5,077 nt of DNA from Candidatus Fermentibacterales bacterium (GTDB taxonomy: Bacteria; Fermentibacterota; Fermentibacteria; Fermentibacterales; JAFGKQ01). The translations under genes and the position numbers were made by a program. This document shows, one piece after another, positions 565 through 5,014 of the stretch. Under the pieces are notes generated by a model. The model saw only the letters and a list, made by a program, of their open reading frames with translations. It searched no databases and was not told the origin of the DNA. Location of the stretch: the NCBI GenBank assembly GCA_016928495.1, contig JAFGKQ010000097.1, positions 1 to 5,077 on the forward strand. The letters run 5' to 3'. Numbering within the stretch: position 1 is the stretch's first letter; every line of letters starts with the position of its first letter.

Positions 565-1590
565 ATGAGGCTCCTTTGCATCTGTAGCCTGCTGCTGATA
601 TCCGCTGTCGCAACAGGCGCCAGCGTGGTCAGGACACTGGACGCGCCTGACACGAACATCAGCGGCCTGGCGTTCGGCGACGGCAAGCTCTGGGCAGTCG
701 ACGGCGGCACCTCGATGATCTACGGCCTGGACCCCGTCAGCGGCTCCGTCGAGACCAGCTTCTACGCGACACACAGCTCGGTTCCGAGCTACTCTCCGGG
801 CGGGCTGGCCTTCTACAACAACAACCTCTTCGCAAGCTTCTTCTACTCGACCTCCTCCACCTACATCTACTGGTACACGACGGCTGGGGCTAACGCGGGC
901 TACGACATCCTGTGTTGAGGCCTCTACACCCCGTCGGTGACGGGGCTCTCGTGGAACGGCACCAACATGTACGGCAGCACGACCTACTCCACCTACTACG
1001 ACGGCTGCTTCGGGTTCCCCTTCTCGGGCTCCTACTTCAGCAGCAAGACGACCTACATCAACACCTACTCCGGGACCCCGACCGGCTATGACATCGCCTA
1101 CCAGCAGAGCAACGGGAGCATCTGGATGGCGACTGACAACGCGACCAGCCCCGTGGCGTGCTTCCAGGCCACGAGCGGCGGAATACTGGCCTCTCTCCCG
1201 GCCAGCATCGGAATAGGCAGCTCCTGCAGGGGGCTGGCGTTCGAGACGGGCTCGAGCCAGTACCTGTGGGTGAGCAACAGCTCTACCGACGAGCTCTACA
1301 GGGTAGACCTGAGCACTGCGGTGGAGGACGAGACCAGCCAGGGGATAGGCGACGCCCCCGTGCTGAGCTGTGGCCAGAACCCGTTCAGGGACTGCGTGAC
1401 GCTGTTCTCGAGCGGCATCGACGCCGCCGCGGTCCTCCAGATCTTCGATGTCAGCGGCAGGACGGTCCTCGAGGACGCGTTCCAGGGTGCATTCGCCTGG
1501 GACGCCCGAGGCGTTCCCAGCGGGCCCTACTTCGTGGTCGTCAGAGTGAACGGAGAGCCATCGGCGACCCTCCGGCTGATGAAGCTCTAG
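565..1590 (+). CDS. Secreted beta-propeller-like protein with sorting domain, interrupted by one in-frame UGA
   Basis: Read through the UGA at codon 118, this is a 341-residue product. Residues 1-19 are a signal peptide (one Arg, then a Leu/Ile/Ala-rich core ending A-T-G-A). Five related repeats follow, each opening with a G-L-A-F/W-x-x-x-x-L-W-like strand, at about residues 32, 78, 125, 174 and 221 (period 46-49), as in NHL/YVTN-type propellers. Residues 264-341 are a FlgD-like / type IX-style sorting domain: Q-N-P-F, then L-Q-I-F-D-V-S-G-R, then W-D-A, then P-S-G-P-Y-F-V-V-V, ending L-R-L-M-K-L. Conventional calling would give two genes, 565-918 and 937-1590 (GTG start). The second would lack a signal peptide and has no Shine-Dalgarno, so it is a continuation and not a separate gene. 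Candidate explanations are a recent nonsense mutation, an assembly error, readthrough or selenocysteine insertion. The terminator at 1611-1645 suggests it is monocistronic. Function is unknown; surface binding is a guess. Confidence 0.8.
916..918 (+). other. In-frame UGA codon inside the propeller gene
   Basis: TGA follows a TGT (Cys) codon, giving D-I-L-C-(UGA)-G-L-Y-T-P. Both flanks share one frame, and there is no frameshift or second stop in the remaining 223 codons before the natural TAG. UGA works as a normal stop for the cupin gene (457-459) and the beta-helix gene (3114-3116), so the code is standard. One-base changes from TGG (Trp), CGA (Arg) or GGA (Gly) would each explain it as a mutation. 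Confidence 0.9.
929..945 (+). promoter_or_regulatory. SECIS-like hairpin just downstream of the in-frame UGA
   Basis: CCCCGTC (929-935) and GACGGGG (939-945) pair perfectly around the loop GGT (936-938). The 17-nt hairpin starts 10 nt after the UGA. Known bacterial SECIS elements lie inside the coding region directly after the UGA. The minimal E. coli fdhF element is a 17-nt hairpin about 11 nt downstream with a GGUC loop. The bulged U of the E. coli element is absent here. The hairpin encodes T-P-S-V-T-G, so chance in GC-rich coding DNA is a real alternative. The hairpin itself is certain; its SECIS function is speculative. Confidence 0.35.
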
Positions 1591-1745: not shown

Positions 1746-1751
1746 TTGCCA

Positions 1752-3116
1752 GTGAGGTACTTGCTTGTTCTTGCGGCGTATGCTGGCCTCTGCGCAGGTT
1801 CGGTCCTGGAGGTCCCCGGTGAGTACGCCACCATTCAGTCGGCGATCTTCGCCGCTGTTGGCGGGGATACCGTACTGGTCGCCCCGGGCATCTATGTCGA
1901 GAACATCTACTATCTTGGGAAAGCGATTACGATCACGAGCGTGGGGGGCCCCGCTGTGACTCTCATCGACGGCTCGGAGCCGGTGAACCCCGACTTCGCC
2001 AGCGTGGTGCGCTTCCTTCTGGGGGAGGGGCCTGACTCGGTCCTCGATGGATTCACGCTCACGGGAGGGACCGGCACCAGAAAGCCGAGCCCGTCCGGAC
2101 CGGGCCAGCTATGCGGCGGGGCGGCGTACTGCTGGTACGCCTCTCCGACCGTGACCAACTGCGTCATGACCGAGAACAGCGCCGACTGGGGTGGCGCCAT
2201 CTACTGTCAGTGCTCTTCAGCAGCCATTGCGAACTGCCGTATCGAGGACAATCAGGGGAGCAGCAGCGGGGGGGGTGTCTACTTCGGGTACTCGAGCTGC
2301 GCTATCAGCAACTCGATCATCGCGCGCAACAGCAGCGTCTCCGGAGGAGGCCTGTTCGAGAGCTACTCGAGCGATACGACGTTCGTGACGAACTGCGTTC
2401 TCGCCGGGAACAGCGTTTCGAGCAGCGGCGGCGGGTTCTATCTGACGGCCGCACTGACTGGCTTCAGGAACACGATCCTCTGGGACAACTCCGCACCTAC
2501 CGGTCCCAGCGGCTTCATCCTGTTCTCCACCACTTCCGCCTTTCTGGACTACTGCGACGTGGAAGACGGACCCTCATCCATCGTGGGTGATGGGGTCGTC
2601 TGGGGAGAGGGCAATCTGGAGATGGATCCGCTGTTCTTTCCCGGGCCTCTCAGCGACTATCACCTCTCACCCCTGTCTCCGTGTGTGGATGCGGGAGACC
2701 CTGACCCCGAGTACAGCGATCCCGAGGATCCGGAGGATCCCGGACACGCTCTCTGGCCTTCTCTCGGCGGGCTCCGGAACGACATGGGCGCGTATGGGGG
2801 AGGCGGCAGCGGCGGATTCACGGCCGTAGAGAGCAGCCACGCCAGCGTTTCTTCCGGGCCCTCATTGGGACTCGTAAGGCCCAACCCTTCCAGTGGTCAG
2901 GCCGTTGTGGAGATCAGCCTACCGGAGAGCGCCGAAGTGGCCCTGTCATTGTTCTCGCTCGACGGCCGCGTGGTCCATTCTGCTCGTGACGGGTGGACTC
3001 CGGCTGGAACCCACACTTTCTCGCTTGGAACCGGGGCGAAACTCCGGCCGGGGGTCTACCTTGTCGTTGTGGAAGCCTCCGGATGCCGCGTGTCCCGGAG
3101 GTTCGTCGTGCTCTGA
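1752..3116 (+). CDS. Secreted right-handed beta-helix (pectin-lyase-like) protein with sorting domain
   Basis: This is a 454-residue protein starting at GTG. Residues 1-17 are a signal peptide. Residues 21-51 (V-P-G-E-Y-A-T-I-Q-S-A-I, then G-D-T-V-L-V-A-P-G-I-Y-V-E-N) are the usual opening of pectin-lyase-fold / DUF1565-like proteins. Five helix rungs follow at 136-257. Each starts N-[C/S/T]-x-[IM/L], has a second Asn six residues on, and four end in a Gly cluster: N136, N161, N187, N214 and N240, period 25-27, forming an asparagine ladder, with Cys at 137, 162 and 215. Residues 303-350 carry the Y-H-L-S-P-x-S-P-C-V-D-A-G-D-P and D-M-G-A-Y-G-G motifs that commonly close such helices in FCB surface proteins. 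The FlgD-like sorting domain spans 373-454 (R-P-N-P, L-F-S-L-D-G-R, L-R-P-G-V-Y-L-V-V-V, terminal R-F-V-V-L). No catalytic lyase residues can be assigned; polysaccharide binding or a structural surface role is equally possible. A G8 tract lies in the third Gly cluster region. Confidence 0.88.
   Translation: MRYLLVLAAYAGLCAGSVLEVPGEYATIQSAIFAAVGGDTVLVAPGIYVENIYYLGKAITITSVGGPAVTLIDGSEPVNPDFASVVRFLLGEGPDSVLDGFTLTGGTGTRKPSPSGPGQLCGGAAYCWYASPTVTNCVMTENSADWGGAIYCQCSSAAIANCRIEDNQGSSSGGGVYFGYSSCAISNSIIARNSSVSGGGLFESYSSDTTFVTNCVLAGNSVSSSGGGFYLTAALTGFRNTILWDNSAPTGPSGFILFSTTSAFLDYCDVEDGPSSIVGDGVVWGEGNLEMDPLFFPGPLSDYHLSPLSPCVDAGDPDPEYSDPEDPEDPGHALWPSLGGLRNDMGAYGGGGSGGFTAVESSHASVSSGPSLGLVRPNPSSGQAVVEISLPESAEVALSLFSLDGRVVHSARDGWTPAGTHTFSLGTGAKLRPGVYLVVVEASGCRVSRRFVVL
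2268..2275 (+). repeat. Poly-G tract (G8) inside the beta-helix gene
   Basis: Eight consecutive G encode Gly173-Gly175 (GGG GGG GGT). Losing one G would bring the downstream frame to TGA at 2386-2388; gaining one would bring it to TGA at 2588-2590. Either would remove the end of the helix and the sorting domain. Confidence 0.9.
2718..2742 (+). repeat. Short tandem 9-bp repeat encoding an acidic D-P-E linker
   Basis: GATCCCGAG, GATCCGGAG and GATCCCGG run head to tail in frame, encoding D-P-E, D-P-E, D-P-G at residues 323-331. This forms an acidic, proline-rich loop between the S-P-C-V-D-A-G-D-P motif and D-M-G-A-Y-G-G. Confidence 0.75.
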
Positions 3117-3163
3117 GCGCCCTGAGGTGACGGGTGCGGGTGGCTTGGCAGGCTGAGGGGAGC

Positions 3164-3170
3164 AGGAGGA
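3164..3170 (+). promoter_or_regulatory. Ribosome binding site deciding the start at ATG 3173
   Basis: AGGAGGA lies directly before ATG 3173, with the GGAGG core ending 3 nt upstream, somewhat closer than the 6 nt seen for the two genes before it. It rules against the in-frame GTG at 3134, which has no such site and would add 13 charged residues before the signal peptide. Confidence 0.65.
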
Positions 3171-3172
3171 GA

Positions 3173-5014
3173 ATGAACGCCAGGAGCGTCGTCGGATCCG
3201 TTGGTGCTCTGGGTCTGGTTGCGATCTGCGCCGGAAGTGGATACGGCCAGCCCTGGGAGCATGCCGTCCACGATATGGGTGAGCTCTGGAACACGGTCTG
3301 GGATTGCCTGATGTACGGTGACCCATGGGAGGACTACCCGGGCTGCGCCTGGCCCGGTCCGACCATGGACAGCTACCTGTGGTGCGGAGACGTCTGGAGC
3401 TTCGCCTACGGAGCCGTGACCGTCCACGGGGACTCGATCAGCAAGTGGGCCAGCTGCAGTGACTACGGCAACTGGGAGATCCGCTGCAGCGACGGCTATC
3501 CGCTCGAGTACCTGACCCCGGGTCCCGTTGCTCCCGGGCAGAGCCAGTTCGGAGCTGATGACTGGGATATCACTTACAATCCCAGTCCCTATGGTCTGAT
3601 GGTATGGAACGAGAACTACACCTGGGACAGCCCCGGATACGACGACTTCATGGCCATGAAGCTGGTCTTCACTCACCATAGTGAGCACGGCAACCCCGGA
3701 GTGCCCCTGGATGCGTTCGTGGTAGGAGTCCGGGGGGATTGTGACGTGGCATCGTCTGACCAGGCAGAATGCAACCTCGACGATCTGGTGTACTACGACG
3801 GCCACGCGATCTGGTGCAACGAGCCCGGGAATGAGTTCGACTACCTGTTCTTCGACGGCATCCCCGCAAGCTCCAGGGACTTCTACACCTACCAGCAGAA
3901 CCCCGATGCGTCCTACCCGGACCCGGATGACAACGTCTACTACCACTACAACTACCCAGGGCCGGACGGGCTCGTGGATGCCGATGTGGACGCGAACGGA
4001 GTCAGCGATCACCTCACTATCCTGGCGAAGGTCGCGGGAGCCGACACCGTCTACGTGCTCGACGAGGAGAGCGGCATCCTGATGTTCTCAGGGGGGATGC
4101 CGCCCGGGCACTGGCACCATACGGTCGGTGACACGACCTACCTGGTGGTGCCCAGGAACCTGAGCTACATGTGGGACAGCGACACCCCGGGGAGCCCTGA
4201 GGACGACTCGGGCGAGTGGGCGATCGATCCCCCGTGCAACGGGTTCGTGGGGTGGCGTCTGCTAGACTGCTGGGTGCGAGAGCAGAACGGCTCCATCGCC
4301 AGATTCGTGGACGTGAGCGGCTGTGCCATTCCCCTCTGTCATACCTGGTGGACCTGGGAGTACGATCCGGGAACTGACATGAAGAAGTACGACTATGCCT
4401 GGAGCAACACTCCCTTCGGGATCACCCCGAAGAGCGGCCCGGAGTACATCTCCGGCTGGCTGGGCCATCCCTGTGCGCCCGAAGCGTACGAGCCGGACTA
4501 CCCGGGTCCCTTCCCGTTCATCAGCGATTCTCCTATCGAGTACGGCTTTCCTGCCTTCGACCACAGGTTCCTGCTCAGCATCGGCCCGGTGAGGCTGGAT
4601 GACGGGGATAGCCTGTACGTGATGGGCGGCTGGGTGGTCGGCGCCGGGCTGGAGGGTTTGCGAAGGAACGCCGACCTGATGCTCGATGCATACTGGCGCG
4701 AGGGTGTCTGGGGAGGGGCCACCCCTGTGGTCTCGGGACTCGCGCCGATACGCCCGGCTATGCGGCTGCGGATGGTCCCCAGCCCCGCGACCGCCGTGAT
4801 CTCCGTCCTGATCGAGCTACCCGACCCCGGCGAGCTCCGCCTCGATGTGTTCGACTGCTCTGGAAGACTGGCCATCTCGCAGTCCTGCGGCAGCCTGTCT
4901 GCCGGCAGTCATGAGATCGCTCTCGATCTGGGAGATCTGCCTTCCGGCGTCTACTTCGCAAGGGCCACGTCGGGAGCCGAAGCCGCATCGGGGCGCTTCG
5001 TGGTCCTGCGCTAG
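3173..5014 (+). CDS. Secreted Trp/Tyr/Asp-rich protein of unknown function with sorting domain
   Basis: This is a 613-residue protein. Residues 1-25 form a signal peptide (Arg4, hydrophobic core, likely cut near G-Y-G/Q). The long central part (26-525) matches no family I can name. It holds all 26 tryptophans, about three times the usual share. There are also 15 cysteines outside the signal peptide, which could form disulfides. D-V-D-A-N-G-V-S-D at 271-279 looks like a DxDxNG-type calcium loop. The stretches Y-D-D-F-M-A-M (156-162), G-V-R-G-D-C-D-V (185-192) and V-V-G-A-G-L-E-G-L-R-R-N-A (488-500) resemble recurrent motifs of large hypothetical secreted proteins of FCB candidate phyla, from memory. 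Residues 531-613 are the FlgD-like sorting domain (V-P-S-P-A, L-D-V-F-D-C-S-G-R, L-P-S-G-V-Y-F-A-R-A, terminal R-F-V-V-L-R). The gap to the beta-helix gene is 56 nt with no clear terminator, so co-transcription is plausible. Confidence 0.85.
   Translation: MNARSVVGSVGALGLVAICAGSGYGQPWEHAVHDMGELWNTVWDCLMYGDPWEDYPGCAWPGPTMDSYLWCGDVWSFAYGAVTVHGDSISKWASCSDYGNWEIRCSDGYPLEYLTPGPVAPGQSQFGADDWDITYNPSPYGLMVWNENYTWDSPGYDDFMAMKLVFTHHSEHGNPGVPLDAFVVGVRGDCDVASSDQAECNLDDLVYYDGHAIWCNEPGNEFDYLFFDGIPASSRDFYTYQQNPDASYPDPDDNVYYHYNYPGPDGLVDADVDANGVSDHLTILAKVAGADTVYVLDEESGILMFSGGMPPGHWHHTVGDTTYLVVPRNLSYMWDSDTPGSPEDDSGEWAIDPPCNGFVGWRLLDCWVREQNGSIARFVDVSGCAIPLCHTWWTWEYDPGTDMKKYDYAWSNTPFGITPKSGPEYISGWLGHPCAPEAYEPDYPGPFPFISDSPIEYGFPAFDHRFLLSIGPVRLDDGDSLYVMGGWVVGAGLEGLRRNADLMLDAYWREGVWGGATPVVSGLAPIRPAMRLRMVPSPATAVISVLIELPDPGELRLDVFDCSGRLAISQSCGSLSAGSHEIALDLGDLPSGVYFARATSGAEAASGRFVVLR

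Follow-up and report, generated by a model that had tools for sequence, protein, structure and literature searches.

A probable selenocysteine-containing, exported beta-propeller family in Candidatus Fermentibacterota

The closest described counterparts of the gene studied here are bacterial selenoproteins of the E. coli FdhF type. With these it shares an in-frame UGA, a hairpin immediately after it, a G as the first base of the loop and a host encoding tRNA-Sec and SelB; unlike E. coli fdhF, the family has a 3-nt loop (GGU/GGC), and the copy described here has no bulged U. A 2026 catalogue lists 119 families of prokaryotic selenoproteins, and our family lies outside it by its fold, its location and the context of its motif: to judge from the text, the catalogue holds no propeller and no family from Ca. 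Fermentibacterota (PMC13188914). Some catalogue selenoproteins (the MerB-like SaoL, SaoC, a SELENOW-like family and GrdA) do carry a vicinal Cys-Sec or CxxU pair, but on other folds, whereas here the pair, mostly C-U-G, is placed in a propeller loop of a predicted exported protein of which no Cys form was found. A vicinal Cys-Sec is also present in the GCUG tail of vertebrate thioredoxin reductase.

In terms of fold, the nearest relatives are the plant and bacterial glutaminyl cyclases (PF05096), which are likewise five-bladed propellers and of which 2faw and 3mbr were the best solved structures in VIA-align (Z about 24). We considered and rejected an origin from, or membership of, the glutaminyl cyclases, since the similarity is at the level of the fold alone and the sequence tests fail. 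The Pfam model PF05096 matched neither the protein studied here at E 0.1 nor any of 39 family members at E 0.01, hhalign against it gave 36% probability over 63 columns, and the residues conserved in neighbouring PF05096 cyclases are, by eye, absent from the Sec propeller. Weak similarity to the propeller repeats of DUF6923 (PF21959) is seen in 34 of the 39 members, the copy described here scoring 25.3 bits, under the gathering cut-off of 27; we know of no Sec in DUF6923. No selenoprotein model in NCBIfam (June 2026) matched, and nothing was found in the open-licence literature on selenium in Fermentibacterota, propeller selenoproteins or selenoproteins of the type IX secretion system (T9SS); an earlier report elsewhere is possible. 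The family appears to be undescribed, as does the occurrence of Sec in a beta-propeller or in a type IX secreted protein.

A reading frame interrupted by UGA

The window, that is, the whole stretch of 5,077 nt that was analysed, is contig C184 of a 2.3-Mb MAG (G000) that is 81% complete and fragmented into 337 contigs. The features of the gene and its product are as follows.

552-558, + strand: likely ribosome-binding site GGGGAGG, read from the sequence, 6 nt upstream of ATG 565
565-1590, + strand: predicted selenoprotein gene, ending with TAG at 1588-1590 and giving 341 aa when UGA is read as Sec
565-621, + strand: putative N-terminal signal peptide, MRLLCICSLLLISAVATGA, hydrophobic, helix 2-16 in the structure model
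622-1314, + strand: predicted five-bladed beta-propeller domain, residues 20-250 (AlphaFold2; VIA-align to 2faw and 3mbr)
913-915, + strand: codon TGT for Cys117, adjoining Sec; Cys at -1 or -3 in all Sec copies
916-918, + strand: UGA, probably specifying selenocysteine (Sec118), a residue in the loop that links the outer strand of blade 2 to the inner strand of blade 3; the codon found in 112/112 Sec-type homologues
929-945, + strand: bacterial SECIS hairpin, 7-bp stem and GGU loop, 17 nt after the UGA, supported by folding energy, covariation and codon lock
1378-1584, + strand: predicted type IX secretion type A sorting tail, residues 272-340 (TIGR04183)

The TGA at 916-918 is the sole in-frame stop from ATG 565 to TAG 1588-1590. 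A preliminary description had reported a single TGA breaking an otherwise intact frame, followed by a short hairpin, and the positions of both are exactly as given there, including the size of the hairpin (CCCCGTC-GGT-GACGGGG) and its distances of 10 nt from TGA to stem and 17 nt from TGA to loop. The + strand of the window contains no other 7-bp Watson-Crick hairpin with a 3-nt loop, the chance expectation being about 0.4, and the minimum free energy (MFE) of this one has a z of -2.5. Judged on the window alone, the hairpin is only mildly unusual and at most suggestive; the comparison with homologues decides. Bacterial SECIS (bSECIS) elements are expected to have a loop of 3-9 nt, a stem of 4-16 bp, a G in the first two loop positions, a distance of 16-37 nt from the UGA and an MFE of at most -7.5 (PMC13188914). 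The window hairpin lies within every one of these bounds (GGU loop, 7 bp, 17 nt, -12.6 kcal/mol). A scan of the window with Rfam returned nothing relevant, and Rfam may contain no model for such SECIS elements.

Homologues, hairpin and selenium machinery across the phylum

Matches to the family were found in 42/42 genomes of Ca. Fermentibacterota (formerly Hyd24-12), and most full-length homologues have exactly one TGA. Among the 116 regions inspected in detail, 112 carry this TGA, at the equivalent point of the protein, and they come from 40 genomes. Thirteen further Sec copies, including one that breaks off directly after the TGA, came from a second pass and bring the total to 41/42 genomes. 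One genome (G024) holds the broken Sec copy only, and in another (G016) no Sec copy was found despite a family match. Cys directly precedes Sec in 69/112 copies (C-U) and occupies position -3 in the remaining 43 (CxxU); Gly follows Sec in 107/112. Sec is replaced by Cys, Trp, Arg or Gly in 0/112 copies, and no Cys orthologue occurs among the 116 regions or 16 further ones. Cys counterparts exist for most selenoproteins; this family is unusually large and seemingly Sec-only. A few full-length paralogues without Sec (L131, L132, L137, L231 and L232) lack the entire Cys-Sec loop and are not Cys-substituted. In one copy, L100 (G006:C7), another TGA lies in frame 60 codons past that for Sec and would seem to be a defect or a sequencing error.

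With the loop columns left out, a quick tree divides the propeller homologues into several paralogous subfamilies, each spread across many genomes; on it, only four switches between the states C-U, CxxU and none are required. In a collection of 84,980 species the named relatives all belong to Ca. Fermentibacterota (Hyd24-12, Fermentibacter, Sabulitectum, Aegiribacteria), in a scan with one short peptide pattern that distant relatives beyond the phylum could escape. No relatives were found among phages or plasmids, nor in viral contigs by a SECIS pattern. Ordinary gene finding cuts these genes apart at the TGA, and public annotations therefore probably hold truncated proteins.

The hairpin is retained together with the codon. 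Its loop starts with GG in 111/112 copies, at a distance from the UGA of 17 nt in 66 copies and 20 nt in 45. On average 6.68 of the 7 stem pairs are kept, whereas 200 synonymous recodings of these genes gave a mean of 3.48 and a maximum of 3.86. Compensatory changes are evident in the stem (CCCGTC/GACGGG, CCCGTT/AACGGG, CCCTTC/GAAGGG, CCAGTC/GACTGG), and the covariation scores of the two spacing classes, 0.412 and 0.598, were reached by 0/500 shuffles in either class and drop sharply when the pairing partners are slid by one column. Given that relatedness lets sequences beat shuffles more easily, we place the weight on the slid controls and on codon usage: in the S-V-T-G stretch encoded by the hairpin, Ser is TCG in 67/67 copies (13% elsewhere) and Val is GTG in 67/67 (24% elsewhere). 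A search for further SECIS-bearing families with covariance models of the element (R1 and R2), which are family-specific, mainly returned the propeller family itself. In L091 and L112 the SECIS can be drawn by eye with a bulged A (CGCCG-A-ACC-GGT-GGT-CGGCG), recalling the bulged base of E. coli fdhF; the MFE fold of L091 differs from this drawing.

The genome from which the window comes encodes SelB, a tRNA-Sec with anticodon UCA (74 bits) and two tandem selD genes (G000:C329 357-2646; L016, L017), while of selA the 3' part alone is present, beside selB at a contig end, with a score under the curated cut-off. Each of the SelD proteins has one in-frame TGA within a CAGU (CxxU) motif, followed by a hairpin; Sec decoding would therefore have other clients in this genome, and the organism very likely decodes Sec in further proteins, SelD among them. 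Across the phylum, SelB was found in 35/42 genomes, including 24/24 of high quality, and tRNA-Sec in 36/42; in the six others it went undetected at the threshold used, and just two of these six are of high quality. The preliminary description had made its proposal dependent on sel genes in the same genome, on the residue aligned to the UGA and on conservation of the hairpin in relatives. All three came out in its favour: selB, two selD, tRNA-Sec(UCA) and a 3' fragment of selA are present, the aligned codon is UGA in 112/112 copies and never one for Trp, Arg, Gly or Cys, and the hairpin is conserved with covariation.

Could the TGA nonetheless be a true stop, or else an artefact, with mere remnants on either side of it? 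A lone in-frame stop is the usual sign of gene decay, and the assembly in 337 pieces might invite error. The comparative data already refute this explanation, to which we attach practically no probability: the same TGA occurs in 112 homologues from 40 genomes, and the presence of this codon in tens of independent MAGs excludes a sequencing error. Moreover, sequence is conserved on either side of the TGA among 39 aligned homologues, with the T9SS tail preserved beyond it, and the median Ka/Ks is 0.16 before the UGA and 0.14 after it, so that the two parts are under purifying selection of about the same strength; a downstream value of about 0.14 argues that the halves are translated as one protein. 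Nearly as improbable is a selenium-free reading, in which a suppressor tRNA or altered code would insert another amino acid at the UGA, or readthrough or frameshifting would yield two products. UGA has indeed been reassigned in some bacteria, and a parallel short form ending at Cys117 is conceivable, but UGA serves as an ordinary stop elsewhere in the window (the end of a cupin gene at 457-459 and the ORF at 1746-3116) and in several members of the propeller family, which disfavours a changed code, and a covarying bSECIS-type hairpin accompanies tRNA-Sec and SelB. Taken together, the sel genes, the aligned UGA and the conserved, covarying hairpin support the original proposal that the UGA is a selenocysteine codon, and on this genomic evidence we regard Sec insertion at 916-918 as nearly certain.

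Fold, export and gene neighbourhood

AlphaFold2 modelled the protein, with Sec as Cys, at a pLDDT of 91.7 as a propeller with a tail domain, the five blades being counted from the strand list of the model. In the model Sec118 lies in a loop flanked by strands 110-115 and 125-130, between blades 2 and 3, and in the model of a paralogue of the CGGU type (pLDDT 88.5) Sec119 occupies the same blade 2/3 loop. The tail of the window protein scores 23.8 bits with TIGR04183, just above the cut-off of 23, and 34/39 family members match at E 0.1. Its profile matches in the PDB are gingipain and other C-terminal domains of T9SS proteins, and the SprA translocon is above cut-off in 40/42 genomes. These three lines point to type IX export, which we consider highly probable. 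An adjacent Cys-Sec pair in an exported propeller had been anticipated from the window, and is now backed by the alignment and a confident structure model. The combined reading of 565-1590 as a gene for an exported selenoprotein is, in our view, very probably correct.

The surroundings of the Sec gene vary between subgroups. At about 14 loci of the CGGU subgroup (L173, L175, L178-L180, L185, L187, L188, L194-L196, L198, L204 and L206) the Sec propeller follows a same-strand block of an M48 peptidase and a glutaminyl cyclotransferase (PF05096), and at some of them a cyclase-domain protein and an SH3_3 protein stand ahead of the peptidase. The window member and the GSDLD subgroup have other gene contexts. 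In the window, the Sec gene is followed on its own strand by two more predicted secreted proteins (1746-3116, a beta-helix/NosD-like protein, and 3134-5014), whose T9SS-type tails are below the Pfam cut-off.

Possible function and significance

We propose the following course of events. The hairpin at 929-945 would recruit SelB with Sec-tRNA(UCA), and UGA 916 would be decoded as Sec118 beside Cys117. The product would then be exported, its type IX tail directing it to the cell surface or the medium, where folding as a five-bladed propeller would put the Cys-Sec pair in the blade 2/3 loop. The pair (C-U here, C-x-x-U in paralogues) would most likely form a reversible selenylsulfide and may perform extracellular thiol/disulfide-type redox chemistry. 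Propellers are not classic oxidoreductases, and glutaminyl cyclase is not a redox enzyme; our suggestion follows from the Cys partner being universal and from its two spacings being interchangeable. Since the fold is no known redox fold and no third Cys is conserved across the family, there is room for metal binding or another role, and we hold a redox function to be only somewhat favoured.

A different use of the same loop might be to bind a soft metal or metalloid, or to carry or store selenium outside the cell. C-U motifs do occur in metal-related catalogue selenoproteins (the MerB-like SaoL and the metal-binding MbdU), propeller loops often bind ligands, and the absence of a third conserved Cys would suit this role too. 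However, the retention of both C-U and CxxU, swapped on the tree, fits a two-residue redox pair, and one Sec per chain would make a poor store of selenium; we judge this explanation unlikely, though it deserves to be kept in mind. Less plausible still is that the Sec propeller acts in the maturation of envelope proteins, for instance with the M48 peptidase and glutaminyl cyclase, and not on an environmental substrate. The order of genes at the CGGU loci, all on one strand, speaks for it, but the window member and the GSDLD subgroup are found in other contexts and neighbourhood alone is no proof of a shared pathway, which makes this role doubtful.

Fermentibacterota have been described as anaerobic fermenters of cellulose and sugars (PMC10116835). 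Multi-copy, Sec-obligate surface propellers, with 1-6 or more in nearly every genome and a fold not previously known to contain Sec, could be characteristic of the phylum and represent a new extracellular redox process, a proposal to which we give about an even chance. If true, these bacteria would carry out redox reactions in anoxic sediment, for example on sulfur compounds, disulfides or metals. The family also offers a rich natural set of SECIS variants with strong covariation, and the Sec propellers provide a handle on the cell-surface activity of an uncultured, widespread anaerobic phylum.
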